Translations under genes and position numbers: made by a program | Source of the DNA: Alphaproteobacteria bacterium | GTDB taxonomy: Bacteria > Pseudomonadota > Alphaproteobacteria > Rhizobiales > Rhizobiaceae | Direction of reading: 5' to 3' | DNA length: 64,000 nucleotides | Assembly: GCA_024742485.1 (NCBI GenBank) | Contig: JANSYK010000001.1 | Coordinates: forward strand, 310,001 to 374,000 | Shown: positions 33,241 through 54,024 of the stretch, piece after piece | Layout of the letters: each line of letters starts with the position of its first letter | How positions within the stretch are numbered: position 1 is the stretch's first letter | Notes under the pieces: generated by a model | Told to the model about the DNA's origin: nothing | The model's database searches: none | Seen by the model: only the letters and a program-made list of their open reading frames with translations

Positions 33241-33259
33241 TGTGAGCATATACCTCATA
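33241..33259. promoter_or_regulatory. Imperfect inverted repeat in front of the first IclR gene
   Basis: TGTGAG-N7-CTCATA with further partly matching flanks lies 17 bp upstream of the IclR start and in the divergent promoter region. It could be the autoregulatory operator. About 8 of 11 positions match between the longer arms. Confidence 0.35.
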
Positions 33260-33275
33260 TAACGGGATGATCTGA

Positions 33276-35050: not shown

Positions 35051-35060
35051 GACAGTGACC

Positions 35061-36254
35061 ATGGCACACACCGAGATATTGAGGGGCATTCGCATTCTCG
35101 ACCTGACGCGCGTCATGTCCGGTCCCTATTGCACATCAATGCTGGCGGATCTCGGGGCCGAAGTCATCAAGATCGAAATGCCTGGATTTGGCGATGAAGC
35201 GCGGCATTTCGGACCCTACAAGGACGACGAGAGCACCTATTTCATGATGCTCAATCGATATAAGAAAAGCGTCACGGTTGACATGAAAAACGAAGAGGGC
35301 CGGAAGATCGTCGAGGCGCTGGTGCCCAAATGCGATGTCATTGTTGAAAATTTTCGTCCCGGCGTCATGCACCGTCTTGGATTGGGGGAGGATGCCGTGC
35401 GGGCAATGAACCCGTCCATGATCTATGCAAGCATCTCGGGCTTCGGCCAGGAAAGCCCGCTGCAGAACTGGCCCGCTTTCGATCTGGTGATCCAGGCCAT
35501 GGGTGGGCTGATGAGCCTGACGGGCCCCAAGGGCGGGCCGGCAACGGCTGTCGGCGAATCCATGGCCGATGTCTGCACGGGCATGTTCGGCGCCTTCGGC
35601 ATTGTCGCCGCACTGTTCGATCGCGAGCGAACGGGCAAGGGACGTGTCGTTGATGTTGCGATGCTGGATTCGATCATGGCCATGCAACTGACTGGCCTTT
35701 CCCGGCAGCTTTATTCCGGCGACACGCCCAAACCGGCCGGAAACCGGCACCCGGTTACCTATCCGGTTGACAGCTTCCCGACCCAAACCGGCGACATCGT
35801 TCTGGTCTGCTTCTCCCAGCCGAGCTTTGCAGCACTCTGCACCATGATGGGACAGCCCGAACTGGCCGACGATCCGCGCTTTGCGACCAACAGCGACCGC
35901 AATCAGAACGAGGATGAGTTGCGACGGCTCATCACCGAATGGACCGCCCGGCAGGAACAGGAACCGCTGGTCGCCCGGCTGCAGGAAGCCGGTATTCCCG
36001 CAGGGCCGGTATGGAATCTTGAACAACTCACGACATCGGATCATGTCGCCGAGCGGGATCTTGTAGTGCAGGGCGCTCACGAAAAATTCGGCACTGTGCC
36101 TCTGGTTCCGCAACCGGTTCGGTTTTCTGGCGCTGCCTGCGCACCGGTTCCCTTCGTGCCGACGCTTGGGCAACACACAGATGAGGTTCTGGGAGACCTG
36201 CTCGACATGAGCGAAGACGACATTGCAAAATTGCGAAAGAGGAAAGCCATATGA
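35061..36254 (+). CDS. CaiB/BaiF (family III) CoA-transferase
   Basis: The 397-residue enzyme starts with the typical [28 protein letters not shown] and has the middle region [16 protein letters not shown] followed by the catalytic aspartate in [16 protein letters not shown]. Family III enzymes move CoA between carboxylic acids by way of an aspartyl anhydride. The substrate is unknown; the neighbouring urocanase homologue suggests an acid with an imidazole or similar ring. A GTG two codons upstream could also start. The next gene begins 13 bp after this stop. Confidence 0.92.
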
Positions 36255-36267
36255 CGAGGGTTTCCCG

Positions 36268-37944: not shown

Positions 37945-37950
37945 GACAAA

Positions 37951-38244
37951 ATGACGGCCTACATCGTTTCGCGTGTCAGCATCGAAGACAGCGCGGCCAT
38001 GAAAGACTACATGGCCGACGCGCCTGCAACGGTGGCCGCCTATGGCGGAAAATATCTGGCCAGAACACCCGATATCGAGGTGCTGGAGGGGGACGCCGAC
38101 TACAACCGAATGGTGGTGCTCGAATTTCCCGACAAGAAAAGTGCCCTCGCCTGGTATCATTCGGACGACTATCGCGAGCTGCGGGAAGCCCGCTGGCGCG
38201 CGGCTTCGGCCCATATCGTCCTGTTGCCGGGTGAGATGGTCTAG
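37951..38244 (+). CDS. DUF1330-family small protein
   Basis: A 97-residue dimeric alpha-beta barrel-type protein with the DUF1330 pattern: MKDYMADAPATVAAYGGKYLAR near the start and VVLEFPDKKSALAWYHSDDYRELREARWRAA in the second half. The function of the family is unknown; it is seen in catabolic operons. It is 6 bp after the urocanase homologue and ends the operon. A short palindrome (CCCTGA-G-TCAGGG, 38253-38265) follows the stop. Confidence 0.88.
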   Translation: MTAYIVSRVSIEDSAAMKDYMADAPATVAAYGGKYLARTPDIEVLEGDADYNRMVVLEFPDKKSALAWYHSDDYRELREARWRAASAHIVLLPGEMV

Positions 38245-38585: not shown

Positions 38586-39623
38586 ATGTCAAATTCCACG
38601 ACAACAGGTGCCGTGAAGCGCTGGATCATGCGCAACTCACCCGAGCTGCAGTTCTGGGGTTATGAGGGCGGAAATGTGCTTGCGGCTGTTGCTGGCGCCG
38701 GTGGCTTTCTGGCCTTTTACCACGGCGTTGGAGCGATCGCGGCCGAAAGCGGAACCGGCCTGGGCCAGCGGGCAGCCGCGCTCCTCTCGGGATTTCCCGA
38801 CGCTGCTGCGACGATTGGCCTGGCAACCATCATCCTCTGGTCCTTGGGGCTCGGCGCAATTGTCAAGCGAACAGGCGCTGGTTTCCTCAATGGGCCGATC
38901 GACGGGTTGGCAGCCATCGCCGGAATCATCCTGATCGCCGCGACGATCATATTCGGCGCCAGTTGGATAACGATTTCAGCGGTCTTTTTCGTTTCGGGCT
39001 CCGCGCTTTTGCGCCAGTGCTTCGAAAGTCCGGTGTTCCTGAAATTGGGCGGTCTGCTGATCTCGGGCGGCGGCGTGTGCCTTACCGGAGCGGGACTGAC
39101 CTATGGATGGGCCGCCGAGGCCTTCTGGGTGGCCATTTTGACCACGGTGACCGGATTTTATGTCGCCGGTGCCGGTTTGATGACCTATCGCGGTGGAATG
39201 TTCGAATGTAACGCCGCCAAGGCAAGCGCCGGTACAGGCGAAGGCCAAAGCGGGCTCTTTCATCCGTTCAGCCTGTCTGCCCGGGCCTTGGAATATGCGC
39301 TCGACCGCCCGGTGCTTGTTCTGGTCGAAACGGTGGTACTGCCGTCGCTTTTCTGGATACCCGCATCGATCAAAATGCATGCGCCGTTTCTGACATCCAT
39401 GTGGGCCCGTCTTCCCTGGCGGCTTCTGACCGCTATTGCAGCGCTCGCAACCGGCTCGGCGGAAGGTCTGACTTTCGCCGCCGCAAATCTGCTTTGGGCC
39501 GCAGGCGATATTTCCATCGGCTCGCTGGACTGGGAGTCGGGCGGCGAGGATATTGCTGAGGTAAATTCGCAAATTCCGGCCAGTTGTGAACCCTGCGCCC
39601 CGGCAAACATCAACGGATTATAG
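38586..39623 (+). CDS. Multipass membrane protein of unknown family
   Basis: I do not recognise this 345-residue protein. It has roughly seven or eight hydrophobic segments (about residues 31-51, 72-92, 105-143, 154-175, 180-200, 242-258, 277-303), a soluble loop with Gly/Ser (about 212-225) and a hydrophilic C-terminal tail ending CEPCAPANINGL. The tail is notable because a diverged copy of it, CEPCAPTNIN, is encoded at 50.7 kb, showing that the C terminus including the Cys pair is conserved between two copies. The gene stands alone on the plus strand after the DUF1330 operon. It has an ATG at 38586 but a poor ribosome site. Confidence 0.7.
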   Translation: MSNSTTTGAVKRWIMRNSPELQFWGYEGGNVLAAVAGAGGFLAFYHGVGAIAAESGTGLGQRAAALLSGFPDAAATIGLATIILWSLGLGAIVKRTGAGFLNGPIDGLAAIAGIILIAATIIFGASWITISAVFFVSGSALLRQCFESPVFLKLGGLLISGGGVCLTGAGLTYGWAAEAFWVAILTTVTGFYVAGAGLMTYRGGMFECNAAKASAGTGEGQSGLFHPFSLSARALEYALDRPVLVLVETVVLPSLFWIPASIKMHAPFLTSMWARLPWRLLTAIAALATGSAEGLTFAAANLLWAAGDISIGSLDWESGGEDIAEVNSQIPASCEPCAPANINGL

Positions 39624-40005: not shown

Positions 40006-41208
40006 TCAGATTGGATCATCTGATGACCGGGAATTGGCCCATTGTCCAAGAGCGTGTGATGCCGCGCCAACCCCGGTATATTCCAGCGCTCGCCCCTTTG
40101 CTGCAAGTGCCGCATCAATGCTGCCTAGGCAACCCAGAATGGTCGGCGCGTTGACGTGCCCCATATGGCCGATGCGGATCGACTCCTTCACCAGATTGCC
40201 CAGGCCGCTGCCCAATGTAACCCCACACTGTGTCCTGCAATAATCTACGATCTCAGCAGCGAATGTACCGTCGAAGCGAAAGACAGAAACCGAGTTGGAG
40301 CGGCTCGCGGGCTCGGAGATATTGAACGTCGCCCCCGCCGCCTCCCATGCCGATATCGCCGCCCTTGTGGCCGTCGCAACGGCCGCATGTCGCCGGTAAA
40401 CCTCGGGCAAACCTTCCTCGAACATCATCTTCAGGGCCTCTTGAAGGCCAAACAGAAGCTGTTCCGGGGGCGTGCCGCAATATTTCTGATAGTGAACATC
40501 GCCATCGCGGGCCGTCCAATCCCAATAGGGCGTACGCAATTGCGCCGACCGGTGCTTTCGCTTGGCTTTTTCGCCAACGGCCACAAAACCCAGGCCGGCC
40601 GGCGACATCAGCCCCTTTTGTGACGCTGAAATGGCAACATCAACGCCCCAATTGTCCAGTTCGAATGGCATGGTTCCAAGAGAGGCAACCGCGTCGACCA
40701 AAAAGAGCGCCTCGTGATCCGTCGCATCAATGGCGTTTCGCAGCGTGGCGATATCGTTGACACATCCGCTTGCCGTATCGATCTGCACGACAAGTATCGC
40801 CGCAATGTCCCCCGCAGAATCCTGCCGCAACCGTTCCTCAAGCGCATCCGGATCAACCGCCGAATCCCAGCGACCGGGAAGCACTTCGATTTCCAGGCCC
40901 AGAAAACGCGCCATTTCTCCCCAGCCGACCGCAAACCGCCCAGATTCCAGAACCAGCAGCTTTTCGCCACTGGAAAACAGATTTGTCAGCACAGCTTCCC
41001 ACACACCATGTCCGTTTGACGCGTATAGATAGGGAACAGTTGATGATCCAAAAACCTGCTGGAGGCCGGATTGGCAATCAGCTGTCACATCCAGCATTGG
41101 CCCGGCATAAATATCCATGGATGCCCGATGCATCGCACCCAGCACCCGGTCAGGCAGAATCGACGGCCCCGGGATCAGCACCGTTTCGCGCCCATTGGCA
41201 AACGACAT
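40006..41208 (-). CDS. Class V PLP-dependent aminotransferase (alanine/serine-glyoxylate type)
   Basis: The 400-residue enzyme begins LIPGPSILPDRVLGAMHRASMDI, has YLYASNGHGVWEAVLTNLFSSG for cofactor contacts, the PLP-binding aspartate in FLVDAVASLGTMPFELD, the Schiff-base lysine in AISASQKGLMSPAGLGF, and IRIGHMGHVNAPTILGCLG near the end. Such enzymes use alanine, serine, ureidoglycine, 2-aminoethylphosphonate or pyridoxamine as amino donors, and the partner cannot be read from sequence. It is the last gene of the DUF6282-FAH-TAXI-TRAP operon, 36 bp after the permease. Confidence 0.9.
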   Translation of the reverse strand: MSFANGRETVLIPGPSILPDRVLGAMHRASMDIYAGPMLDVTADCQSGLQQVFGSSTVPYLYASNGHGVWEAVLTNLFSSGEKLLVLESGRFAVGWGEMARFLGLEIEVLPGRWDSAVDPDALEERLRQDSAGDIAAILVVQIDTASGCVNDIATLRNAIDATDHEALFLVDAVASLGTMPFELDNWGVDVAISASQKGLMSPAGLGFVAVGEKAKRKHRSAQLRTPYWDWTARDGDVHYQKYCGTPPEQLLFGLQEALKMMFEEGLPEVYRRHAAVATATRAAISAWEAAGATFNISEPASRSNSVSVFRFDGTFAAEIVDYCRTQCGVTLGSGLGNLVKESIRIGHMGHVNAPTILGCLGSIDAALAAKGRALEYTGVGAASHALGQWANSRSSDDPI

Positions 41209-41244
41209 TGCGAATTCTCACTTCGTCAGGCAGCAGAACCATCG

Positions 41245-43206
41245 TCAGGCGTTGACGAGCTGACTGGTCTTGAAATTGCGCCGAGCGGCCAATGCAAGCA
41301 ATGGCAAAATCAGCGCTGCACTCAACAACATTATTTCGATCTTGCTCAATGGCAAGACACTTTCGCCCGGCAGGGGCAACAACAGGCTGCCAATGAGAAA
41401 GAACCCTCGCTCAATGGGTTTCAGTTTGCCAATACCGAACAGATATCCCTGCATGGCACTGGCAAACAGGGTTATGCCGATAAGCGCCAGTATCAAAGTG
41501 GCCAGGGTTTGCAGCAAAGGTCCCTGTAGAACAAGTGCAGGATCCAGGACAAAGAAGAACGGAATGAAGTAGATAACGCTCCCAAGCCGCATGGCTTCAA
41601 ATCCCGTTTTCATCGGTGACGCTCTTGCGACGGACGCCGCCGCAAAGGCACCCAGCGCAACCGGTGGCGTGATGAATGACAGCATGCCCCAATAGAATAT
41701 GAAAAGATGGACCGCCATCGGGTTAAGCCCTGTCGCGATCAGCGCAGGCGCCAGGATGATCGCCAGAAAAATATAGGCCGCTGTGACGGTCATACCGATG
41801 CCCAGAACAAAGCTCGTCGCCGCGCCTATGATCAATAGCAGGAGCTGTGAACCACCAGCAATTGACAGCAGGTCATTGACCAGCGTGCCGGCAAGGCCGG
41901 TCATGGACAGGGCGCCGACAATCAATCCGATACCCGCCAGCACACCAACGAGTTCTGCGAACAGTTTCGCCAGCGTGTCGAAAAAGCCCACCAATTCCTT
42001 CCAGCCCCAACGGGTGTCTTTGGAAACGAACTGATTGATCAATATGAGCACGGGCGTGGCATAGAAGGGGGCAAGCATTTCACGGCGCAGGAACAACAGC
42101 AGATAGACAAGCAGCGCAAACGCAAACAGATAATACCAGCCTTCCTTCAATGTCTTCCGCAGCGACGGCAGCTCTGCCCGATCCAGGCCTTCGATTTTGT
42201 CATGGGCCGAACGCGCATCAATCTGCACAAACAGTCCAAAGAAATAAAGGAACGACGGGATGATGGCGGCGAGCGCAACACTGGCATAGGACACGCCGAG
42301 AAAATTGGCCATGATGAAGGCCGTTGCGCCCATGACAGGCGGCATCAAAACCCCACCCGTCGAGGCACACGCTTCGACCCCCGCGGCAAACGGCGCCGTC
42401 AGCTTGATGCGGCGCATTGCAGGAATGGTCATGACTCCGGTTGTCATGACATTTGTCACCACCGAACCGCTCATTGAGCCCATCAGACCACTGGCAACGA
42501 TCGCCACCTTGGCCGGCCCGCCGCGAATGTGCCCAAGCAGAGCAAAGGCCAGATTGATAAAGAACGTACCGGCACCGGTATGCTGCAGGGCCGCACCAAA
42601 TATGATGAAACCGATGACCAGATTGGCAAAGGCGCGCATCGGAATTCCGATCACGCTTTCATTGCTCATCGCGTGATAGGCCGCAACGGTGTCGATCGGG
42701 AAAGAAAATCCGGCAATCGGGCCGGGCATGACGTCGGCGAAAAGCGGATAGAGCGATGCAATGCCAACGATAATGGCAAGTGACGTTCCACCGGCGCGAC
42801 GCGAGGCCTCAAAAATCAAAATCCAAAACACCAGGGCAACATTGACTGCATATTGCGGCGCTGCGAGTTCCCAGCCGTTCTCGATCATTCGCAGTGAATT
42901 TGCGATGAGAAAACCAAGCACACCGATCGTGGCCAAAGCCAGCAGGATGTCATACCAGGGAACGCGATTACGGGGCGCACCGCCATACATTGGCAGCAAA
43001 ATGTATATGGACGGAACGACGATCAGCAGAATTGTATAAATATATTGGTTCGCAAGCAGTGTTTGACCAACAAAGAAATGCAGATTGAACGCCTGGTTGA
43101 TGGCAAGCAGAACCAGTGTCAGTGCACCCGTTCTAATCAGCCATCGCCAGGCAGTCGGAAGGTCACGAAAGCGGCTGACAGCCGCTTTCGGTTGTTCGTT
43201 TGGCAC
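41245..43206 (-). CDS. TRAP transporter fused permease (DctQM-type, TAXI partner)
   Basis: A membrane protein of about 653 residues with many hydrophobic segments, in which the small (DctQ-like) and large (DctM-like) permease parts are joined, as is usual in TAXI-TRAP systems. Characteristic stretches are GGPAKVAIVASGLMGSMSGS, TTGVMTIPAMRRIKLTAPFA, EACASTGGVLMPPVMGATAF and FITPPVALGAFAAASVA. The start is uncertain: GTG at 43206 comes directly after the solute-binding gene's stop, while ATG codons at 43230 and 43239 would overlap that gene. It imports organic anions using an ion gradient. Confidence 0.93.
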   Translation of the reverse strand: MPNEQPKAAVSRFRDLPTAWRWLIRTGALTLVLLAINQAFNLHFFVGQTLLANQYIYTILLIVVPSIYILLPMYGGAPRNRVPWYDILLALATIGVLGFLIANSLRMIENGWELAAPQYAVNVALVFWILIFEASRRAGGTSLAIIVGIASLYPLFADVMPGPIAGFSFPIDTVAAYHAMSNESVIGIPMRAFANLVIGFIIFGAALQHTGAGTFFINLAFALLGHIRGGPAKVAIVASGLMGSMSGSVVTNVMTTGVMTIPAMRRIKLTAPFAAGVEACASTGGVLMPPVMGATAFIMANFLGVSYASVALAAIIPSFLYFFGLFVQIDARSAHDKIEGLDRAELPSLRKTLKEGWYYLFAFALLVYLLLFLRREMLAPFYATPVLILINQFVSKDTRWGWKELVGFFDTLAKLFAELVGVLAGIGLIVGALSMTGLAGTLVNDLLSIAGGSQLLLLIIGAATSFVLGIGMTVTAAYIFLAIILAPALIATGLNPMAVHLFIFYWGMLSFITPPVALGAFAAASVARASPMKTGFEAMRLGSVIYFIPFFFVLDPALVLQGPLLQTLATLILALIGITLFASAMQGYLFGIGKLKPIERGFFLIGSLLLPLPGESVLPLSKIEIMLLSAALILPLLALAARRNFKTSQLVNA

Positions 43207-43207
43207 G

Positions 43208-44356
43208 TTATTTATCCCAGACCGGAGCATGTCCGGCATCCGTCAGAGCCTTGGCACGGACGACCATCCAGCGATCCTTGAAATCATCACCACTTTTGTC
43301 AGCCATGCCCGCCCAGGCATCGGCGAGAACGGCCTGCCTGTCGAGCAGTCTTTGATTGTGCGCTTCGGCCTCGTCTGACCACAGACCCTTTTCCTTCCAG
43401 AAGGCAACCGCGCCCGCATGGTACGGCAACACCCATTGGAAGTTCTGTCGACCATCAGCCCATCCACCAGCCGAGGGTTCAGCCTTGACGAAATTGTCGA
43501 ACTGCGCGCTGATTCCCTTGGCCATGTCGTGAACGAGCATGTCATCGCGATCTGGCGCCGTCACAAGAATTGGATAAGGAAATCCACCACACTGTAACGG
43601 ATTGTCCTTGGACAGGTTGGTGCCGGCAGTTGCGACCCTTTGAGCCATGTGTGGCGCAACAGCCTGCATCCGTTTCCAGTTCTCCGTTTCATCATGCGGT
43701 GTTTCCAGCCAGGACAATCCACGTGGCGAAGCATCCAATTCTGTGCCCCCGCCTGTCGTGAACGATGTCATGGCATCGGCCTGGTCATTGACCAGCGCTT
43801 TCCATGCAGCATCAAATCCCGACACTTCAACACGTGTAACATCATCCCAAGTCAGGCCGCCATAGGCCAGAAATGCCGTCACATTCGTCTGCAGTGACGG
43901 AGACCCCAGCACCCATGGCAGCCGCTTTCCCTTCAGGTCCGCCGCTGTTTTGATATTCGCATCCGTGGCGGTTCCTAGCGCCAGGCAGTTCCGTCCTGTT
44001 GCACTCATCACCATCTGCAGTTTCTGCGGTCCCAACTCGGGCTTTGCCCAACCAAGTACCCCTTCAACGGCATAGAACACACCGGAGCCGGCCGCGGAAA
44101 AATCGATCTGGCCTTTCATCACGGGAATGACCCTGGACACGTCATTTTTTGCCGGAACCACGCGCAGCGTGACGCCATAGCCATCCTGCAAGGCTTTGCC
44201 GATGGCAACGGATTGGCTGTAGCCGCTGCTGCCGACATTGTAGGCTGTCCAGGACAGGGTTTTCGGCAGATCGACGTCGCCGGCGGCAAATGCCGCACCG
44301 GATATGAGCGCGCTGAGTGCCGTGGCCGTTGCAAGTTTCGCGAGTTGAATATTCAC
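43208..44356 (-). CDS. TAXI-family TRAP transporter solute-binding protein
   Basis: The 382-residue periplasmic protein begins with a signal peptide of about 26 residues (ending SGAAFA) and has the TAXI fold: LSWTAYNVGSSGYSQSVAIGKAL, then GQIDFSAAGSGVFYAVEG and GKRLPWVLGSPSLQTNVTAFLA. The open frame runs 60 codons further upstream, but a GTG at 44356 is preceded by GGAGG at 7 bp and gives a proper signal peptide, so it was taken as the start. TAXI proteins bind glutamate, alpha-keto acids or other carboxylates; the ligand here is unknown. The permease gene follows immediately. Confidence 0.92.
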   Translation of the reverse strand: MNIQLAKLATATALSALISGAAFAAGDVDLPKTLSWTAYNVGSSGYSQSVAIGKALQDGYGVTLRVVPAKNDVSRVIPVMKGQIDFSAAGSGVFYAVEGVLGWAKPELGPQKLQMVMSATGRNCLALGTATDANIKTAADLKGKRLPWVLGSPSLQTNVTAFLAYGGLTWDDVTRVEVSGFDAAWKALVNDQADAMTSFTTGGGTELDASPRGLSWLETPHDETENWKRMQAVAPHMAQRVATAGTNLSKDNPLQCGGFPYPILVTAPDRDDMLVHDMAKGISAQFDNFVKAEPSAGGWADGRQNFQWVLPYHAGAVAFWKEKGLWSDEAEAHNQRLLDRQAVLADAWAGMADKSGDDFKDRWMVVRAKALTDAGHAPVWDK

Positions 44357-44424
44357 CTTGTTTCCTCCCATTGGTGATCCCGTCTTCCAGCGTGGTTGAT
44401 GGGGATCGGTTAGATTGCGCCGGC

Positions 44425-45405
44425 CTATTTGAGGCCGGGTACAAATTCGATTGGATTGGCCATGCTTCCAAGGCCCTTGATGGATGAGCGCATGGTCCCG
44501 CCAATTTTCCCAAGATCGATTGTCGCCATGGTCCATGGTTGGACCGGACCAACGGTTCCCGTGGATATGATATCGCCGGGTTTGAGCGCATGGGCCCGCG
44601 ACAGGTAGGAAATCAGATGCGCCGCGTTAAAAACATGTTCTGCCGTTGTTCCATGTTGCACATGATCATCGTTCAGCCAGGCATCCAAAACCGCCTCGTC
44701 CGGGTGTGGCGCTTCATCTGGCGTGACCAGCCAGGGACCCATCGGTGAAAATGTATCGAAATTCTTGTACCGGCCGGGATAGGTCAGTTGCTCCTGGGAA
44801 CCATCAGCCCGCTGCATGCAAATCCACTCAGTCGTCTTGCGCATATGATGGGCGGTAATGTCATTGTGCACCACATATCCGAACACATGGTCCAATGCCT
44901 TGTCTTCCGGGATATCGTGGCCGGCTTTTCCGATAATGATGGCCAGTTCGATTTCCGGGCCAACCTGGCCGACATCCGGGATACGCACAGTGTCAGACGG
45001 TCCGACAATGCAGGACGGCAGTTTGGTGAAATAGGTGGCGTGCGGATTTTCCGGTTTGATGGCCGTATCCCACCCGCCATGGCGGTTGATTGCAATAGCA
45101 AAGAATTTTTGTGGGTCATCGATCGGTGCCAGAATATGTGCGCCGTCAACTGCGACAAGATGGTTCGCATGGGCACTGTCATCGGCCTTGATCGCATCCC
45201 AGACTTTTTTGGCCGCGGTGATTGCGACATCACCATCTTCGATCATGACCTTGAGGCTGGCCGGGATCGCGTAGCCCACAGTCGATCCGTTGTTTGACTG
45301 AAGGCTTGCATGGATCGCCGCCACATCGGCAATGTATTGATCATCCCGGCAAGCCAGACCAATGGCCACGTCACCTTGCTGGCGCTGGAATCGGCAGAAC
45401 TTCAT
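44425..45405 (-). CDS. Fumarylacetoacetate hydrolase (FAH) family protein
   Basis: The 326-residue enzyme has the FAH C-terminal domain with the metal-binding pattern GPEIELAIIIGKAGHDIPEDKALDHVFGYVVHNDITAHH and a late SRAHALKPGDIISTGT. FAH-family members hydrolyse or decarboxylate beta-diketo and 2-oxo acids or hydrate 2-oxopent-4-enoate analogues. It lies 40 bp after the DUF6282 gene and 68 bp before the TAXI gene. In this operon it may cleave a C-C bond of the imported acid; the precise reaction is not readable. Confidence 0.9.
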   Translation of the reverse strand: MKFCRFQRQQGDVAIGLACRDDQYIADVAAIHASLQSNNGSTVGYAIPASLKVMIEDGDVAITAAKKVWDAIKADDSAHANHLVAVDGAHILAPIDDPQKFFAIAINRHGGWDTAIKPENPHATYFTKLPSCIVGPSDTVRIPDVGQVGPEIELAIIIGKAGHDIPEDKALDHVFGYVVHNDITAHHMRKTTEWICMQRADGSQEQLTYPGRYKNFDTFSPMGPWLVTPDEAPHPDEAVLDAWLNDDHVQHGTTAEHVFNAAHLISYLSRAHALKPGDIISTGTVGPVQPWTMATIDLGKIGGTMRSSIKGLGSMANPIEFVPGLK

Positions 45406-45445
45406 GGTTTAATATTCCTTTTTGTCTTCGCGGCCCAATCGATCA

Positions 45446-46390
45446 TCAATTGGCGCCTTCGAAATTCGCACCTTCCAGACCGATGATGCGCGCACAGTTT
45501 GTGGTGGTCATTTTGCGCACGTCCTCATCGCTGTATCCGAGGCTGAGTATCAGTTCGATGAAGGCACGCATGCCTTCAACAGGGCTGGGATTGCCGGTCT
45601 GACCCAGGTCTGAGCCGAGGACCGTATTGTCGACGCCACCGGCGTCGATATGCTGGCGCAGCTCTTCCGGCGTGTAGCATTTGAACTTGCTGTCGATGTA
45701 GAACGCTGCCGAATGTTCCACGACCGCACCATTTTCTGTCAATTCGCTGATATCAGCCATGCTGCAGCCCACGACATAGGTCGGATGATTGACCAGGCGT
45801 CGGTTCACTCCACGGGCTTTGGCCTCTTCGAACAGTGGCCAGATTTCGCTGATATGGAGGTGTCCCGACGACAATACAGCATCGAATTCCGCAATCAAAT
45901 CAAGTATTTCCTTGACCTCATCAACCAGCCTTCCCTTGTTGTCAACAACCGAGATTCCTTCTGCCGGGCGCATTGGCTTGGCGGTAACAAGGCGCTTTTT
46001 TCGGTGGGTGGAGCGAATATGATTGGCGGCCGATGACGTCGGCATCCACACCAGGCTGGCCCCCATTTTCAGGAACGTATCCACTGCGAAGGGATTGAGA
46101 CCGCCAGACGTGTTGTTGAGCGGAATGCCGCCAAGAATCTCGACCCCGTATTCTTCCATATGCGGTCTGAGCAAATTGACGGTTGGCGCGCCCGAATAAT
46201 AGTGATCCTTGATCAGGATGGCACGCTGACCTGCCGCGGATGCTTCTTTCATGGCTTCAATGTGATCGACCATGCGCGCCATGACGGATGGCCCGGAATG
46301 AATGTGCAGATCAATAGCCCCCTTCATGTGGCCATCGATGCGGGCTGTCATATTCGAACCGTCTGTATTTTGTTCTTTCTGGTCCAGCAT
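45446..46390 (-). CDS. DUF6282-family metal-dependent hydrolase-like protein
   Basis: The 314-residue protein resembles amidohydrolase/PHP-type TIM barrels: an early metal pair AIDLHIHSGPS, ILIKDHYYSG, a later LSSGHLHISE, VNHPTYV and a final GSDLGQTGNPSPVEGMRAFI. These His and Asp residues could bind one or two metal ions. I recognise it as the DUF6282 type, for which no reaction is established. The ATG at 46390 follows CAGGAG at 8 bp; 22 upstream codons were left out because they would run into the operator region. It is the first gene of the five-gene operon and is divergent from the second IclR gene. Confidence 0.82.
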   Translation of the reverse strand: MLDQKEQNTDGSNMTARIDGHMKGAIDLHIHSGPSVMARMVDHIEAMKEASAAGQRAILIKDHYYSGAPTVNLLRPHMEEYGVEILGGIPLNNTSGGLNPFAVDTFLKMGASLVWMPTSSAANHIRSTHRKKRLVTAKPMRPAEGISVVDNKGRLVDEVKEILDLIAEFDAVLSSGHLHISEIWPLFEEAKARGVNRRLVNHPTYVVGCSMADISELTENGAVVEHSAAFYIDSKFKCYTPEELRQHIDAGGVDNTVLGSDLGQTGNPSPVEGMRAFIELILSLGYSDEDVRKMTTTNCARIIGLEGANFEGAN

Positions 46391-46458
46391 TGCGCGCTCC
46401 TGCTTCACGATAATCACGGTTTCCGAAACGGTATGCAGGGCACCCATTCGGCGCAATT

Positions 46459-46488
46459 TGAAATTCCGTTCATTTCACTCTATGAAAT
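46459..46488. promoter_or_regulatory. Putative operator of the second IclR regulator, divergent promoter
   Basis: TGAAAT (46459-46464), ATTTCA (46472-46477) and TGAAAT (46483-46488) are half-sites in alternating orientation, giving ATTTCA-N5-TGAAAT and TGAAAT-N7-ATTTCA. They lie between the divergent DUF6282 operon and the IclR gene. The ATTTCA-N5-TGAAAT core recurs at 50564-50580 upstream of the dehydrogenase operon. Confidence 0.7.
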
Positions 46489-46520
46489 TTTCAGAACCTG
46501 AAACCTTCGGGAAAAGCGCC

Positions 46521-47297
46521 ATGACGTCATTCTCACCGGTACGCGCTGTAGAACGCACGCTTCATATTCTTGAGCACCTGAACCGCAACCGCGTGACCCG
46601 TGTTCAGGACCTGCACAAGGCAACCGGCCTGCCAAAACCGACCATTGTTCGCCTGCTTCAAACGCTGGAACAGACAGGCTACGTGTCGAATGATCCACGC
46701 CACGGTGGATACCAGGTCACATCCCGGGTGACATCGCTCAGCGCCGGGTTTCACGGCGACCCATTGGTGGTTGAAGCCGGCCGGCCGCACGCAGCAGCAT
46801 TGACCAAACAGTTCATGTGGCCGGCAACAATTGCCATTTTGCAGGATGCAATGGTCATCGTACGGTATTCGACCATCCCCGACAGTCCGAATTCTCCGTT
46901 TCACGCAACGGTCAATATGCGATTGACCCTGGATCACCACGCGCTGGGACTTGCCTATCTGGCGTTTTGCCCGACCGAACAGCAAGACACACTCATCAAG
47001 ATGCTGATGGCTGAAGAGGAGGGCAGCAAAGACCGAATTCAGGAGAAAGAGGTCCTGCTGCGCCGGAAACTGAAAACGGTCAGGGACCAGGGCTTCGCCG
47101 ACCGGGACGCAAACATGGAACCGCGATCGTCAAACACCATCGCGGTTCCGGTCATGAGCGAAGACCGGGTACTTGGAACCCTTGGCGTCACCTATTTTCG
47201 CGCCGCGCACAAGAGAGCCGATGCAATCGGCAAATTTACCAGCAAGCTGCAGACCGCAGTCAGGAGGATTTCCCGGGATATCAGAAGATTGGGCTAG
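46521..47297 (+). CDS. IclR-family transcriptional regulator (second)
   Basis: The 258-residue regulator has a winged helix at about residues 5-65 (VRAVERTLHILEHLNRNRVTRVQDLHKATGLPKPTIVRLLQTLEQTGYV in segments) and an IclR effector domain (PHAAALTKQFMWPATIAIL, LDHHALGLAYLAFCPT, ANMEPRSSNTIAVPVM). The ATG at 46521 follows GGGAAAA; an ATG 13 codons upstream (46482) would overlap the operator. The stop codon TAG is supplied by the left arm of a foldback repeat. It probably controls the DUF6282 operon and the dehydrogenase-hydratase operon. Confidence 0.9.
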   Translation: MTSFSPVRAVERTLHILEHLNRNRVTRVQDLHKATGLPKPTIVRLLQTLEQTGYVSNDPRHGGYQVTSRVTSLSAGFHGDPLVVEAGRPHAAALTKQFMWPATIAILQDAMVIVRYSTIPDSPNSPFHATVNMRLTLDHHALGLAYLAFCPTEQQDTLIKMLMAEEEGSKDRIQEKEVLLRRKLKTVRDQGFADRDANMEPRSSNTIAVPVMSEDRVLGTLGVTYFRAAHKRADAIGKFTSKLQTAVRRISRDIRRLG

Positions 47298-47477
47298 AGC
47301 ATCGGGCGATCATATTGAACCATTTGATGATCCAAATCAGGTCGCTCGGCTAGGCGAACGGCGCCGCGCGATGTGACGCATCGGGCAAGCCGTTCAACAA
47401 CGCAGACGGGCTGATTTGGCTCACCGAAGGCCTGACAAGCTGGTCAAATGGTCCAGTATTATCGCCCGATGCTCTAG
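47294..47477. repeat. 184-bp palindromic foldback element (MITE- or REP-like)
   Basis: The terminal 33 bases TAGAGCATCGGGCGAT... (47295-47327) match the reverse complement of 47444-47476 at 30 of 33 positions. The arms pair further inside: CCAAATCAG (47332-47340) with CTGATTTGG (47411-47419), and GAACGGC (47356-47362) with GCCGTTC (47389-47395). The element could fold into one long hairpin. Each end provides the TAG stop of the adjoining gene. It carries no gene and may act as a two-way terminator. Confidence 0.88.
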
Positions 47478-48088
47478 GCGCGGTCGCGGTTGAGTTCTTC
47501 CATCAACGAGTCCAGCTTGCCCTTCGCCTCATTCTTGAGATTTGTGTAGAGGCAGTTGCCACGCACATCGACACCGACGGTCAAAGGTCCCAGACGCTCG
47601 ACCTTGAGCCGGGTGAGTCGAAACTGTGGAATGAAATCGTGCCAGGCAACCTCCAACACATCGCGGACGGCCTCTGATGTCAGGGCGCTTGCGCCGCCGA
47701 TAAACGAGACATAGACACACCCGTATGCCTTCATGGCCTCAATCGTTTTCGGTCCGACTCCGCCCTTGCCACCAATCATCCGGACCCCGGTTCCGCCAAT
47801 AATGGTCGGCAGATACGGCTCGAACCGGGTGCTTGTGGACGGATTGATATAGCGGCTGACCTGTTTGTTGCCCTGCGTTTCGACATAACAACCCACCTGG
47901 CAGAGCATGCCGTTCGACAAGTCCATCGGCAGCTCTTTGCCGGCATCGACAAATTCGGCGATGCGTTTGTGTGTTGGAAGCCCGACCGTGACGATGATTT
48001 CACCGGTCAGATAGACCAGGTCGCCGATTTGCAGCGGCGTGATGTCGTCCGGTTGCAGTGGCAAAGAAAGCTCATGGATATTGCTCAT
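47474..48088 (-). CDS. Class I fumarase/tartrate dehydratase-type hydratase, beta (C-terminal) subunit
   Basis: The 204-residue protein matches the C-terminal fumarase domain (TtdB-like): ITPLQIGDLVYLTGEIIVTVG near the start, STSTRFEPYLPTII, then VRMIGGKGGVGPKTIEAMKAYG. In tartrate dehydratase beta and fumarase the strand after LTG leads to an RDxxH motif; here the segment is VGLPTHKRI, so the Arg-Asp is missing while the His remains. That suggests a different substrate. It follows the alpha subunit by 8 bp, and its stop lies in the foldback element. Confidence 0.88.
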   Translation of the reverse strand: MSNIHELSLPLQPDDITPLQIGDLVYLTGEIIVTVGLPTHKRIAEFVDAGKELPMDLSNGMLCQVGCYVETQGNKQVSRYINPSTSTRFEPYLPTIIGGTGVRMIGGKGGVGPKTIEAMKAYGCVYVSFIGGASALTSEAVRDVLEVAWHDFIPQFRLTRLKVERLGPLTVGVDVRGNCLYTNLKNEAKGKLDSLMEELNRDRA

Positions 48089-48096
48089 GGCGACCT

Positions 48097-48963
48097 CTAT
48101 TCAATGCGTTCAACATTGCCGGAATTGTAAATCCGGGCCCGCGTCCGCCGATTGATCCAGCAGTTGAAGCAGACCGCGACGGGCGTGAAACCGTGCCCGG
48201 CAGAGAAGTCGATGTGAATGCCCAGGGCGGTGGTGTCGCCGCCCTGCCCCATCGGTCCGAATCCTGTCTTGTTGATCGCCTTGAAAAGCCGCTTCTCCAT
48301 GTCAGCCAGGATCGGCTCCGGGTTCTCGGTGCCCATCGGCCTGAGTGTCGCTTGCTTGGCCATCTTGGCTGCATGGTCAAATGACCCGCCGATGCCAACA
48401 CCGATCATCACCGGCGGACAATGCTGCGACCCTGCGCGGATCACCGTCTCCATGATGTATTTTTCAATGTCCTCAAGACTGGGATAGACAAAAATCTCAA
48501 GGGTCGCCCACCGCCCCGATCCCAGCGCCTTTGGCGAGCATGTTATGTCGATATAGTCTGCACCATCCAGCACATCCCAACTGACGATGGGCATGTCCTT
48601 GCCCTTGTAGGACCGCTCATTTGTCAGCGGGTTCTGCACAAATTGCAGCAATGGCGGATCGATACGACCGACCAGCTCTTCAAATCCATCGGCAAAGGCT
48701 CGCTTGATGTCGCCGGAAAATACCGCCTGGGAACCGATCTTGACCGAATAGACCGGGACGCCTGCGTCCGAGCACAGGAACCGGTCCTTTTCCTCGGCGC
48801 GTTTTGCGCTCTGGATCATGAAATTGAGGACCTTGCGGGCGCCTTCCCCGGTTTCCTCTTCATACGCATCGGCAAGCCTGGCCTTTGTGTCTTCGGGGAT
48901 CTTTTTCAGGGACCATTCGTAGAGGTCAGCCGAAACGCGCTTGATCTGTTCATAGTCTATCAT
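48097..48963 (-). CDS. Class I fumarase/tartrate dehydratase-type hydratase, alpha (iron-sulfur) subunit
   Basis: The 288-residue subunit carries three cysteine positions expected for the [4Fe-4S] cluster: LCSDAGVPVY at about residue 71, the SQHCPPVMIGVGIGGSFDHA region, and the end motif VCFNCWINRR. The usual CQDTG around the first cysteine is CSDAG here. These enzymes add or remove water from a dicarboxylic acid (fumarate, tartrate, mesaconate). It is 3 bp after the flavin reductase gene and pairs with the beta subunit downstream. Confidence 0.9.
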   Translation of the reverse strand: MIDYEQIKRVSADLYEWSLKKIPEDTKARLADAYEEETGEGARKVLNFMIQSAKRAEEKDRFLCSDAGVPVYSVKIGSQAVFSGDIKRAFADGFEELVGRIDPPLLQFVQNPLTNERSYKGKDMPIVSWDVLDGADYIDITCSPKALGSGRWATLEIFVYPSLEDIEKYIMETVIRAGSQHCPPVMIGVGIGGSFDHAAKMAKQATLRPMGTENPEPILADMEKRLFKAINKTGFGPMGQGGDTTALGIHIDFSAGHGFTPVAVCFNCWINRRTRARIYNSGNVERIE

Positions 48964-48966
48964 CGA

Positions 48967-49596
48967 TCAGTCCTGCTCGACTTTGTGATAGGGGCTGGGC
49001 ATGGAAAAGCGCTCTCCGATGGTCGCAAAATCCTGATACCCCAACCGGGTCAGGTGTTGGACCCGGTCGTAGTTCACCAATCCGTCGGCTAGGCAATCAT
49101 CGGCAATATGCACGCCAACCACCTGCCCGAAAACGATTGTGCTCGGATTTTCCGGTCGCTCACTCGGAAGATGCAGAACCTCGATGGTCTTGCATTCAAA
49201 TTGTATCGGCGACTCTGCCACCCGCATGGGCTTCACGATCGTTGAAGGTGACGGTGTCAAACCGGTTTCCCGCATTTCATCAACGTCGGCTGACCAGGAG
49301 GTTGATGTCAGATTGACTTTTTCGCGCAGCGCATAAGTCGCAACGTTGTAGACAAATTCTCCGGTCTGCTTGGCATTGACCCAGCTGTCTTTCGGTGTGC
49401 CGTCTGCCTTGAGGCCGTTACAGGCGAACGCCACCGTTGGAGGGAAATTGTGCACCAGATTGAAATAGCTGAAGGGTGCGAGATTTCCGATGCCATCAGC
49501 GCTGGTGGTGGAAATCCAGCCAATCGGCCGCGGCGCGACACAGGCAGCTATTGGATTGTGCGGAAGGCCGTGGCCATCTTTCGGTTCAAAAAACAA
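48967..49596 (-). CDS. Flavin reductase-like FMN-binding split-barrel protein
   Basis: A 209-residue protein of the flavin reductase/DIM6-NTAB type: AACVAPRPIGWISTTSADGIGNLAPFSYFNLVHNFPP is the flavin-binding core, and GEFVYNVATYALREKVNLTS follows. Such proteins supply reduced flavin to a monooxygenase or act on small substrates themselves. No two-component flavin monooxygenase is encoded in the window, so the partner, if any, is elsewhere. It is 26 bp downstream of the dehydrogenase gene. Confidence 0.88.
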   Translation of the reverse strand: MFFEPKDGHGLPHNPIAACVAPRPIGWISTTSADGIGNLAPFSYFNLVHNFPPTVAFACNGLKADGTPKDSWVNAKQTGEFVYNVATYALREKVNLTSTSWSADVDEMRETGLTPSPSTIVKPMRVAESPIQFECKTIEVLHLPSERPENPSTIVFGQVVGVHIADDCLADGLVNYDRVQHLTRLGYQDFATIGERFSMPSPYHKVEQD

Positions 49597-49622
49597 TTTT
49601 GCTTGGTCCCCACCTATTGCCG

Positions 49623-50513
49623 CTACGGGTCCTGCACATCGTTGCAGGCATCACGAACCATCGCTGCAAAATCCGATGCGCCATTGCCCGCGGCTTGAAA
49701 TTCCCTGTAACTGGCAAGTGCAGCAGAGATGGCCGGCGCGTCGACACCCAGTTCCAGCGCGGTCCGAGAGAACAAGGCCAGGTCTCCGGCAATACCGTCG
49801 GCCGTGAAGCTCACGGCATCGGATTGACCCAGGATCACCGCCGATTTGCCAGCGAGCGATCCATTGGCAGCCGGACTTCCAACGAGGATCTCCAGCATCG
49901 CCCGGGGCTCAAGTCCGGCGCGCTTTCCGACCTGCATGGCCTCCTTCAGGCACTGCCAATAACCACCCAGCATCATATTGTTGACGATCTTCATGGCGGC
50001 CCCATCACCAAGTCCGCCAACATGATGAATACGATCCGAAAGCAATTTCGCCACCGGCATAAAAACGGCAACATCGCGGTCTTCGCCACCAACATACAGC
50101 CCTGCCTTGCCGTTGGAGACCATCTGAGGCCAACCGGATATCGGCGCATCCAGTGCCCTGCCACCAGCTGCTTCGATTGCACCAACTTGGCCTCGCAAGG
50201 TTTGCGGGCTGACCGTGCTGCAGTCCACGATCAGCTTATCGGTCAAAGGATATCGGCACATCTCGTCGAGAACGGCCGTTACCGCGTCATCATCCGAAAG
50301 AGAAAGGATGACCAACTCGCTGCTTGCAAGGAGTGACGAGACATCCGGCTGGGCATCGACGGACAGGGATATCGCTTTTTCCGGCGAGACACCGCTCCGC
50401 GACCAGGCCGATACACGATATCCCGAATTTGAAAGCCGCTTGGCCACGGCGCTGCCCATCTTGCCCATTCCGGCGATTCCAACGCGCTGATCTGATGCTT
50501 TTCCAACTGTCAT
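49623..50513 (-). CDS. NAD(P)-dependent beta-hydroxyacid dehydrogenase (3-hydroxyisobutyrate dehydrogenase family)
   Basis: The 296-residue enzyme has the Rossmann start VGIAGMGKMGSAVAKRLSNSGY, the substrate-binding VDCSTVSPQT, DAPISGWPQMVSNGKAGLYVGG, and the catalytic lysine in AAMKIVNNMMLGGYWQCLKEA. Family members include tartronate semialdehyde reductase and 3-hydroxyisobutyrate dehydrogenase. In this protein the usual GG...A in the substrate loop is ISGWPQMVSNGKAG, again hinting at a special substrate. It is the first gene of the operon with the flavin reductase and the hydratase subunits. Confidence 0.9.
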   Translation of the reverse strand: MTVGKASDQRVGIAGMGKMGSAVAKRLSNSGYRVSAWSRSGVSPEKAISLSVDAQPDVSSLLASSELVILSLSDDDAVTAVLDEMCRYPLTDKLIVDCSTVSPQTLRGQVGAIEAAGGRALDAPISGWPQMVSNGKAGLYVGGEDRDVAVFMPVAKLLSDRIHHVGGLGDGAAMKIVNNMMLGGYWQCLKEAMQVGKRAGLEPRAMLEILVGSPAANGSLAGKSAVILGQSDAVSFTADGIAGDLALFSRTALELGVDAPAISAALASYREFQAAGNGASDFAAMVRDACNDVQDP

Positions 50514-50563
50514 GCGTCATTACTAGGCCATGTCAGCCGCAAGCCAAATGGAATTCGGAATTC

Positions 50564-50580
50564 ATTTCATCTGTTGAAAT
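50564..50580. promoter_or_regulatory. Second copy of the putative IclR operator
   Basis: ATTTCA-TCTGT-TGAAAT is a perfect 6-bp inverted repeat with a 5-bp spacer, 51 bp upstream of the dehydrogenase start. Flanking bases on the left (GGAATTC...) also resemble the site at 46.46 kb (GAAATTC...). Confidence 0.68.
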
Positions 50581-50623: not shown

Positions 50624-50809
50624 ATGCGGGCGGCCGGTGATGTCTCCATTGGCTCACTGGGCCCGGTACCGGCAGAGCAGGACTCCGCCGACAGGCGCGC
50701 GAAATTGCCTGCCGGTTGCGAACCCTGCGCCCCGACAAACATCAACGAACCATTGCTGACCGTCACCAGATCCGGCCAAATCCAGGCGCTCAATCGGGTT
50801 AATACTTGA
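50624..50809 (+). pseudogene. 3' remnant of a gene homologous to the unknown membrane protein
   Basis: The reading frame encodes AAGDVSIGSL followed by a variable stretch and CEPCAPTNIN, matching residues 305-342 of the membrane protein at 38.6 kb (AAGDISIGSL ... CEPCAPANIN). At DNA level 50715-50747 matches 39583-39615 at 31 of 33 positions. The upstream 300 codons are missing and the copy runs on 20 codons past the intact gene's stop position. It is therefore a truncated duplicate, in the same orientation as the intact gene. Confidence 0.8.
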
Positions 50810-51651: not shown

Positions 51652-54024
51652 TCAGCGTGTGACCCAGTCCGGCCGATTGAATTCATAGGTGCGACTTCTC
51701 CAGTCAAAGGACCGATGCACCGTCCAGGGGCGTTCGGTCTTGCCGATGGCGGTGATGATACGCGGGGCATCTCCATCGGTTGACCCGCGAACCTCGACCG
51801 CGCCGGTCTGTCGCAGCATGCGCCCAGTGATCAATATGGCGCCCGACCGGCATTCAGCCATGTCGATTGAACGGCTTGTAATGACAATATCGGCCCGGTC
51901 GCATGCCGGACCAAGCAAGCTCAGGTCCGTGACAACAGCCACCAGCAGGCCCGACATCGTTGTTCCGATGCACAGCATGTCTTTCAGACAATGAAAGGCC
52001 GGTTCATCGGCCACGCCCAGTTCAACGGAATCCCAATCCAACGCCGTAACACTCGCCTTGTCCGAACTGACCTCCAGGGCATTAGGGCGCATATGATCAC
52101 TCCGACGAAGCGCCCGTTGCCATTGTTCGAAAATGAATTTTGAAGGCCGCGACCGGTTGCTGGCAAGCGCGGTTTCGCCAACAATCGCCACCAACCGCCC
52201 ATCTTCCGATACCACCAGGTCCGGTTGCCCGGCCGTTGGCTGGGCGAAAAACAGTCCCATCGCCAAGGCGATCATGGGCAACCCGGCAAGCCTCAACCAT
52301 GACCGAAGAAGCACCAGGATCAGGAACCCACCCGATAAAAGGACAAACGCCAAAGCCGGCAGGCGGCCTGTAACCAGATGACCGCCCAAAGCCTCGACAA
52401 AATAGGCAACTTCAAGCACCCCTTGCAGCCCAAACCCCATCAGTTGAAGCGGCCAGTATTCGAGCCCCAGAGGCATGGCCAGGATCGACAGAAGCCCGGC
52501 AGGCATCACGATCAGGCTGACAATCGGCATCGCGGCGAGATTGGCGATCAGGCCATAGGATGCCACCCGATGAAAATGAAATGTCGCAAAGGGTGCCGTG
52601 GCAAACCCGGCCACCAGGGATGTCATGGCCAATCCGACAAAAAACAGCAGAATGAAACGGGCAATACCAAACCCGGTAGCTTGATTGGTCGGTGATGAGC
52701 GCCTCCGTCGCCATATCGCATAGGCCGCGATAAGTGCCGCCGTTGCGGCAAACGACATCTGAAAGCCCGGCCCGACAACCGCCGATGGCGTCAGCAATAT
52801 GATGCAGACGGCGGCGAGCGCGACGTTTCGCAGCGTCAAAGCCGGTCGGTCGACCAGCACCGCGATCAGAACGATTGCCAACATCAACCAGGCACGCTGG
52901 GTCGAGACGCTGGCGCCGGAAATCATCAAATAGGCAGTGGCGACAAGCAACGAGACAGCGGCTGCAAGTTTTTTGACCGGAAATTTCTGCGCGAATGAAG
53001 GCACGAGGCTGAACCCGGTACGCAGCGCAAAAAAGACCGTCCCGGCCACCAGAGCCATATGCAGGCCGGATATGGCCAGCACATGCGCCAACCCGCTTGC
53101 GCGCAGGGCCTCGACCGAAGCCGGGCTCATCGCGCGACGGTCGGCAACGGCAAGCGCACTTGCAAATGCTCCAACATCGCCATCCAGAACCGTCCGAATG
53201 CGAAGGGCGATTGTCTCCCGAAACCGAACCAGAGCCATTTTGAAGCCGGTTGCGATGCCAACACTCTCCGCAGCTTCGTCATTCAACAGGGTCTCAGGCC
53301 TGCCGTAGAAGAAACCGAATGCGCCAAGCCCCTGGAAATAGGCGTTGAACGCAAAATCATATTGGCCCGGGAGTGCCGGCCCGGAGGGTGGCTGCAAGCG
53401 TGCCAGGCCGGTGATGCCCTCGCCTATTCCGATCGGTTCATGACGGCTCCTGGCCAGGAGGCGGACCCGCTCTGGTGGCCTGCGAATGATTGGATCATCG
53501 GTCGCGGTAAGATTGATCGTATACCGCCACCGCCCGCGATCATCGACATCCCGTGCGATGACCATACCCTGGATTCGGGTTGTTACAGCGCTGTCCAGCA
53601 GCGTTGTCGCATGGCGCCTGGTCTCCATGGCAGCAGCCACCATTCCGATGAGAATTGCACAAGCCAGGGCGGCGCAATAGCGGGATGTCGGATAGGCCGT
53701 CAGAAGGAATACACCGGCCGCCAACGGGGCGATCAAGAGCGCCAGAGGCCATATCGCGATGTCATGATCCGTGGCAAACCAGATCGCTGCACCGAGTACC
53801 ATGGCGACGGGCATCCAAAGAAATCCGTGTCCAAAACGCGCCTCTTCGTCCACCGCCAAATGTACAGAGGTCCGAAACGCCGCCAGAGGCGCCTTTGCGC
53901 CACCGGCAGTACGTGCACCACCGGCCTCATCGAAGGCATCCGTTGTGCTCTCATCCGGCGCAACAATGAACCCCGACGCGCGATCGGCCTTCCCTCGCCT
54001 GGCTTGGTCCCCAACTTCGCTCAT
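51652..54024 (-). CDS. comEC: ComEC/Rec2-family DNA-uptake channel protein
   Basis: The 790-residue membrane protein has an N-terminal DUF4131-like domain, then the competence domain with the hallmark GLAHVLAISGLHMALVAG and a run of hydrophobic segments, and a short soluble C-terminal part. ComEC moves single-stranded DNA across the inner membrane during transformation. A full metallo-beta-lactamase domain is not evident at the C terminus; HxHxDH is absent, as in many alphaproteobacterial members. It converges on lexA (32 bp apart) and is divergent from gltX. Whether the cell is competent is unknown. Confidence 0.93.
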   Translation of the reverse strand: MSEVGDQARRGKADRASGFIVAPDESTTDAFDEAGGARTAGGAKAPLAAFRTSVHLAVDEEARFGHGFLWMPVAMVLGAAIWFATDHDIAIWPLALLIAPLAAGVFLLTAYPTSRYCAALACAILIGMVAAAMETRRHATTLLDSAVTTRIQGMVIARDVDDRGRWRYTINLTATDDPIIRRPPERVRLLARSRHEPIGIGEGITGLARLQPPSGPALPGQYDFAFNAYFQGLGAFGFFYGRPETLLNDEAAESVGIATGFKMALVRFRETIALRIRTVLDGDVGAFASALAVADRRAMSPASVEALRASGLAHVLAISGLHMALVAGTVFFALRTGFSLVPSFAQKFPVKKLAAAVSLLVATAYLMISGASVSTQRAWLMLAIVLIAVLVDRPALTLRNVALAAVCIILLTPSAVVGPGFQMSFAATAALIAAYAIWRRRRSSPTNQATGFGIARFILLFFVGLAMTSLVAGFATAPFATFHFHRVASYGLIANLAAMPIVSLIVMPAGLLSILAMPLGLEYWPLQLMGFGLQGVLEVAYFVEALGGHLVTGRLPALAFVLLSGGFLILVLLRSWLRLAGLPMIALAMGLFFAQPTAGQPDLVVSEDGRLVAIVGETALASNRSRPSKFIFEQWQRALRRSDHMRPNALEVSSDKASVTALDWDSVELGVADEPAFHCLKDMLCIGTTMSGLLVAVVTDLSLLGPACDRADIVITSRSIDMAECRSGAILITGRMLRQTGAVEVRGSTDGDAPRIITAIGKTERPWTVHRSFDWRSRTYEFNRPDWVTR

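Follow-up and report, generated by a model that had tools for sequence, protein, structure and literature searches.

The window analysed here is a 64,000-nucleotide stretch of a Rhizobiaceae genome (Alphaproteobacteria bacterium, assembly GCA_024742485.1, contig JANSYK010000001.1, positions 310,001 to 374,000 of the forward strand). It contains a cluster of ten genes, nine encoding enzymes or transporter components and one encoding an IclR-family regulator, that looks like a catabolic acid-uptake module. Gene calls confirmed all ten as open reading frames (ORFs), and Pfam and NCBIfam searches assigned each a named domain, in agreement with a preliminary description, made from the sequence alone, of nine genes and an IclR regulator in two operons. 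Operon 1, on the minus strand, runs from the DUF6282 gene through the FAH, TAXI and TRAP genes to the aminotransferase gene, while operon 2, likewise on the minus strand, starts with the beta-hydroxyacid dehydrogenase gene, continues with the flavin protein gene and ends with ttdA and ttdB. Between the two operons is iclR, which is on the plus strand and so points away from operon 1 and towards operon 2. The intergenic gaps within both operons are approximately 3-40 bp. The features are as follows:

40006-41208, minus strand: class V aminotransferase (Aminotran_5), last gene of operon 1
41245-43239, minus strand: TRAP transporter fused permease (TIGR02123, 579.1 bits, cut-off 320.65)
43208-44401, minus strand: TAXI solute-binding protein (TIGR02122, 162.5 bits, cut-off 84.35)
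44425-45405, minus strand: FAH-superfamily enzyme (FAA_hydrolase, PF01557)
45446-46390, minus strand: DUF6282 protein (PF19799, 242.6 bits), first gene of operon 1
46473-46487, no strand: operator-like palindrome TTTCACTCTATGAAA, 82 bp upstream of the DUF6282 start
46489-46503, no strand: operator-like palindrome TTTCAGAACCTGAAA, 17 bp upstream of the iclR start
46521-47297, plus strand: IclR-family regulator, MhpR type (NF007342, 260.3 bits, cut-off 251)
47474-48088, minus strand: TtdB-like hydro-lyase beta subunit (Fumerase_C, PF05683)
48097-48963, minus strand: TtdA-like iron-sulphur (Fe-S) hydro-lyase alpha subunit (Fumerase, PF05681)
48967-49596, minus strand: flavin reductase-like protein (Flavin_Reduct, PF01613)
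49623-50513, minus strand: beta-hydroxyacid dehydrogenase (NAD_binding_2/11; PF03446, PF14833), first gene of operon 2
50565-50579, no strand: operator-like palindrome TTTCATCTGTTGAAA, 51 bp upstream of the dehydrogenase start

The starts of the TAXI (44401), DUF6282 (46390) and iclR (46521) genes are our choices; the longest ORF for the TAXI protein extends to 44536.

Close relatives of the cluster are present in other genomes. All of its genes except that for the aminotransferase occur in the window's order in L009 (a Rhizobiaceae metagenome-assembled genome, MAG), L010 (a MAG labelled Blastopirellula) and L011 (a Paracoccaceae MAG), with 52-91% identity to the window genes by tblastn, the 91% value spanning a 178-residue piece. 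The L010 cluster is very similar to the alphaproteobacterial ones, so mis-binning or recent transfer is likely. A rearranged set is found on plasmid pW43B of Parasedimentitalea marina (L066), where an HpcH/HpaI aldolase replaces FAH and the order is DUF6282, aldolase, a further gene, dehydrogenase, flavin protein, TtdAB, iclR, TAXI, TRAP and aminotransferase. Identities to the window are 84% for TtdA, 76% for TAXI, 71% for the flavin protein and 60% for the aminotransferase, and just 51% for DUF6282. The preliminary description had made its proposal depend on these genes co-occurring elsewhere; since the set recurs in other loci, the proposal holds on this point for the set as a whole, though with FAH exchanged in P. 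marina and without a constant aminotransferase. Comparison of the ORFs of the five loci (stretches of 17-32 kb, in which the gene caller misses some genes, including iclR of L066) revealed, besides the ten genes, nothing common to at least three loci; three families each occur in two.

The flavin reductase was rejected as a marker of the cluster because its family is too common (a relative in 143 of 385 genomes of the class at E 1e-25). Close relatives of TtdA are rare: one is present at E 1e-85 in one of 398 sampled genomes of the phylum, the source genome itself, and at E 1e-60 in seven of 72,556 plasmid records. A scan of genome contigs for DUF6282 gave 51 loci, and tblastn counts were made on 72 DUF6282 loci, which are partly related and hence not independent; eight of these contain TtdA at E 1e-10. 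In all TtdA loci viewed (the window, L009-L011, L021, L022, L063, L066, L103 and L140-L143), a dehydrogenase or oxidoreductase gene, of various families, adjoins the hydro-lyase or lies a few genes from it, which fits a hydroxyacid intermediate.

The palindrome TTTCAnnnnnTGAAA is found upstream of both operons. The pattern TTTCANNNNNTGAAA has four copies in the window against 0.10 expected, and none of 100 shuffles reached four, bearing out the earlier claim that an operator-like repeat is common to both operons. Three of the copies (46473, 46489 and 50565) precede the DUF6282/iclR and dehydrogenase genes. Across the 6,867,895-base genome, palindromes of this type number 11, compared with one for a reversed control pattern. 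The layout upstream of each operon, 5+5+5, is conserved: in L009, L010, L011 and L066, both operons are preceded by the palindrome itself or by a variant of it, with one arm changed at the DUF6282 site of L009 and both arms changed at both L066 sites, and the relaxed pattern TTYCRnnnnnYGRAA finds no further site in these loci of 17-21 kb. This relaxed pattern, set after the sites had been inspected, or the strict site occurs in 13 of 16 distinct IclR upstream regions of DUF6282 loci, including L009-L011, against a background of 77 in 1,324,519 bases, or about 0.026 per 440 bp. The 16 regions derive from 17 rows, L102 being the same contig as L009; in L012, L013 and L057 the IclR gene does not adjoin DUF6282. 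The HTH_IclR and IclR_C domains of the island regulator score 52.4 and 26.3 bits, above the cut-offs of 22 and 24; these scores and the conserved palindrome before each operon agree with an IclR-family regulon (MhpR type). The two operons are probably co-regulated. A fourth exact palindrome of the window, at 51982-51996, lies within a comEC-like coding sequence and is probably due to chance. Elsewhere in the genome, a further IclR gene (L068, G000 C121, positions 8825 and 10640) encodes a protein 30% identical to the island regulator and lies near TRAP permease-like and SDR-like genes.

The surroundings of the cluster suggest that it was inserted beside lexA. Two flanking features are relevant:

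38586-39623, plus strand: left flank ORF345, which apparently adjoins lexA in an island-free congener
50702-50774, plus strand: right flank, repeating the 3' end of ORF345 together with the bases immediately downstream of it (identity in 60 of 73 columns)

DUF6282 is absent from six of seven congeners at E 1e-60; the sole match is in G385, the genome of L009, where the cluster is located about 142 kb from lexA. In G387, ORF345 reaches the contig end after 261 residues and its continuation ends another contig, directly before lexA; we infer a join across the contig ends, and G387 appears to have the empty site. In the window, it is the 82% copy of the ORF345 3' end that stands beside lexA, and this copy could stem from insertion or recombination at the end of ORF345. 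ORF345 and the copy likely mark the island borders. Two further congeners, G389 and G391, have paa genes within 20 kb upstream of lexA and lack the island block. The GC content of the block (0.55-0.57) is slightly lower than that of its surroundings (0.56-0.61), which is no island evidence by itself. On balance, we slightly favour a horizontally acquired catabolic island of approximately 11 kb. The sequences themselves show two operons on one strand, iclR between them and a palindrome before each, and this unit recurs at different genomic places in other genomes. A rare and accessory cluster of this kind would also be expected of a detoxification or salvage module, acting on a damaged or toxic acid instead of supporting growth, and an amidohydrolase-like enzyme with a flavin protein would presumably suit such a role. 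The dedicated uptake system encoded in the operon instead points to feeding on the compound, and we regard detoxification as very improbable.

The first gene of operon 1 encodes a member of DUF6282, which Pfam describes as a family of unknown function and which is distributed among alpha-, beta- and gammaproteobacteria and haloarchaeal plasmids. Searching its sequence against the PDB yielded no credible relative. Of the 15 hits with E values up to 1, the ten strongest are pentatricopeptide chains, none of which has a passing stretch; in the stronger half of the list such a stretch is seen only in 7w89 (E 0.0049), a putative pre-16S rRNA nuclease. An AlphaFold2 model was built with 34 sequences (predicted local distance difference test score 85.7). 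Its best Foldseek match is 2i5g (E 5.6e-8, 16% identity), and almost all of the best 50 matches are amidohydrolase-superfamily barrels, at 9-17% identity. Enzymes of this superfamily have an eight-stranded barrel with an HxH motif after strand 1, histidines after strands 5 and 6, and an aspartate after strand 8. In the same 34 sequences an HxH motif, H168, H193 and D252 are invariant, at positions that we take to coincide with the superfamily's metal ligands. The model and alignment thus show the barrel, HxH, two histidines and aspartate of the superfamily, and DUF6282 is best described, on its predicted structure, as a distant amidohydrolase-superfamily barrel. No lysine or glutamate after strand 4 is invariant in the alignment, which suggests that the protein binds one metal. 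The preliminary description had called DUF6282 a hydrolase and had listed a C-C bond hydrolase in the set. For DUF6282 both terms are family guesses, and we have dropped the C-C hydrolase role, for which superfamily membership is the only basis. A second DUF6282 gene of the source genome (L061/L069, G000 C154:457080-457697) encodes a protein 32% identical to the first, and its neighbours read like genes for a LysR regulator and a solute-binding protein.

FAH contains E151, E153 and D182, invariant in four sequences and presumably the family's metal ligands. Four cysteines of the TtdA-like subunit are invariant in nine sequences, and the only solved relative found is a fumarate hydratase. The four solved relatives of the flavin protein include NTA monooxygenase component B and 2-nitrobenzoate nitroreductase, and because of the latter the flavin protein may act on a substrate itself. 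No monooxygenase that could pair with it in a two-component system was found among the ten proteins by Pfam, nor is one among the genes that the five loci have in common; a partner may be encoded elsewhere in the genome. Near TtdAB relatives in L141 (5179-7889) and L142 (5428-7918), a flavin reductase gene has an aconitase-family gene close by, which is another instance of a flavin protein in the vicinity of a hydro-lyase. The TRAP permease is present in all five loci (a partial call in L010), and several of the solved chains closest to the TAXI protein are TAXI binding proteins. According to an excerpt of PMC11574862, glutamate is the ligand of one characterised TAXI protein, and alpha-ketoglutarate is imported by another system.

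Comparison with curated families argues against a direct assignment to a known pathway. NCBIfam cut-offs are reached for the transporter subfamilies, for the domain subfamily of TtdA and for one regulator model of the MhpR type, but not for the equivalogs of pathway enzymes. The cluster could nevertheless be a variant, with unusual enzymes, of a characterised pathway such as that for homoprotocatechuate, gentisate, L-fucose/L-rhamnose, L-tartrate or the beta-hydroxyaspartate cycle, and matches below cut-off to HpaG, diketo-deoxy-rhamnonate hydrolase, TtdAB and BhcA are of the kind that such a variant would give. All of these scores are far below the curated values. FAH reaches 103.7 against 276.4 for the homoprotocatechuate equivalog HpaG-C and 127.1 against 500 for LRA6 (NF053535). 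The window's hydro-lyase resembles L(+)-tartrate dehydratase TtdAB and class I fumarase in having two subunits and invariant cysteines; its subunits score only 146.7 bits (TtdA, cut-off 365) and 115.8 bits (TtdB, cut-off 264), and its gene neighbours differ. Similarly, a BhcA-like aminotransferase and an IclR regulator recall the beta-hydroxyaspartate cycle (bhcRABCD), but the aminotransferase scores 296.7 bits against a cut-off of 650 for BhcA and the regulator 50.4 against 350 for BhcR; BhcB, BhcC and BhcD are not among the ten proteins by Pfam or NCBIfam, no dedicated genome search having been made. No ring dioxygenase or sugar dehydrogenase was detected among the ten proteins by Pfam either, the rest of the genome not having been searched for them. 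A variant of a characterised pathway is therefore distinctly improbable.

In its layout the set parallels the non-phosphorylating L-fucose and L-rhamnose routes (FucB and FucC followed by either the aldolase FucH or the dehydrogenase FucF plus the hydrolase FucG; LRA5/LRA6). As described in an excerpt of PMC11199699, a lactonase and a dehydratase act first, after which one carbon skeleton is split to give pyruvate either by an aldolase (route 1 of L-fucose) or by a dehydrogenase and a hydrolase (route 3); a reference title in the same source assigns the lactonase of the fucose route to the amidohydrolase superfamily. The solved chains closest to the window's FAH include HpcE-like proteins and L-2,4-diketo-3-deoxyrhamnonate hydrolase (8gsr). 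Unlike these routes, which use other enzyme families, the window set has DUF6282, an Fe-S TtdAB, a beta-hydroxyacid dehydrogenase and an acid-type transporter, and contains no sugar dehydrogenase. A comparable exchange is seen around DUF6282: an HpcH/HpaI aldolase is encoded in 61 of the 72 loci, FAH in seven, both in one (L023) and neither in five (tblastn), so the two enzymes appear largely to replace each other. The DUF6282 loci of Pseudomonas, Burkholderia and Paracoccus resemble the window in having IclR genes and acid-type transporters nearby, but they usually contain the aldolase, often with a cupin, instead of FAH, the hydro-lyase and the flavin protein; L021 and L022 also carry a hydro-lyase and a flavin protein. 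A partner of approximately 300 residues in 31 of the 72 loci (tblastn; L065:10691-11593, L066:10716-11624 and others) reads like a double cupin, although two members gave no Pfam hit at E 0.01; in Mameliella it is annotated as two separate ORFs (L063:7283-8181). Also unlike the window, 29 of the 72 loci have a dihydroorotate dehydrogenase-like gene.

We propose that the cluster encodes a catabolic mechanism in which the TAXI-TRAP transporter would import an organic acid that is anionic and probably either cyclic or unsaturated, and DUF6282 would open or trim this acid in a hydrolysis, hydration or decarboxylation step. The Fe-S hydro-lyase of TtdAB type would then add water beside a carboxylate or remove it there. 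Oxidation of the hydroxyacid formed would fall to the beta-hydroxyacid dehydrogenase, and FAH would split the 2,4-dioxo acid produced, releasing pyruvate and another acid. Where present, the class V aminotransferase would move nitrogen to or from the 2-oxo product, and the flavin protein would supply reduced flavin mononucleotide or carry out one reduction. IclR would bind the palindromes and, in response to the imported acid or to an intermediate, release or activate the two operons. We assign this reading, of uptake, DUF6282 action, hydro-lyase action, oxidation and FAH cleavage under IclR control in an acquired island, a probability of roughly 55%. Candidate substrates (pyrone or pyridine dicarboxylates, kojic or comenic acid, orotate and uronic-acid derivatives) lacked evidence and were dropped.

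Several observations weigh against this mechanism. The gene data establish neither the order of reactions nor the substrate, and DUF6282 could instead be a decarboxylase or hydratase. The complete peripheral pathway that the preliminary description read from the genes is thus a possible interpretation at most. P. marina has an aldolase yet retains the dehydrogenase, so the analogy with fucose breakdown is not clean. Three of the 16 IclR upstream regions (L064, L103 and L104) have no palindrome site, and the same palindrome precedes the other IclR gene on contig 121 of the same genome; motif sharing alone is thus no proof of control by the island IclR, and the palindrome seems to belong to a regulator subfamily rather than to the island cluster alone. 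The aminotransferase, which the preliminary description had counted in the set, is not a constant part: it is encoded in two of the five clusters (the window and P. marina pW43B) and missing from three: none was found among the called ORFs of L009, L010 and L011, the L010 TRAP gene being called only in part. G385 has a 48% relative of it on another contig, and the P. marina protein (L101:3297-4301) occupies the same place in its cluster and is shorter than the window's. It is the least certain member of the set. Finally, on plasmids of Martelella, Roseomonas and Paracoccus, the annotated stretches that contain relatives of TtdA lack DUF6282, which makes the hydro-lyase a reusable part.

This last point, like the presence in Pelagibacterium of DUF6282, TAXI, TRAP and an FAH-family gene without operon 2, would accord with two independent pathways under one regulator, operon 1 degrading one acid while operon 2 serves another acid or a general mesaconate/fumarate-type step. 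We consider this unlikely, since the genes of both operons stay together in all five close clusters, whose neighbours are otherwise mostly different, both operons share the palindrome, and TtdA recurs alongside DUF6282 in L021, L022, L063 and L103. We read the cluster as a real, probably co-regulated and mobile, putatively catabolic module.

A broader proposal, to which we give somewhat less than an even chance, is that the pathway is absent from those described: DUF6282, a branch of the amidohydrolase superfamily with no assigned function, would start acid breakdown, and its members throughout Proteobacteria would supply a common node, a 2-oxo-4-hydroxy (or 4-oxo) acid, emptied either by the HpcH/HpaI aldolase and a cupin or by the hydro-lyase, dehydrogenase and FAH, with parts swapped between mobile islands. 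The preliminary description knew of no pathway with this gene set, and open-licence PMC papers likewise yielded no description of the set or of DUF6282, which is no proof of absence. The regulator, transporter and enzyme families are already known; it is their combination that appears new. Compact and mobile, and equipped with a transporter, a regulator and operator-like sites of its own, the cluster offers a direct route to the substrate of DUF6282: its TAXI and IclR proteins would sense, each independently of the other, the same compound or a product of it.

A neighbouring block at 29688-38244, comprising a first IclR gene, an ABC transporter and genes for a QOR, a CoA-transferase and a urocanate hydratase-like protein, is also missing from the corresponding place in G387. 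We named these genes by inspection, aided by an annotated urocanate hydratase of L063 that matches at 64%.

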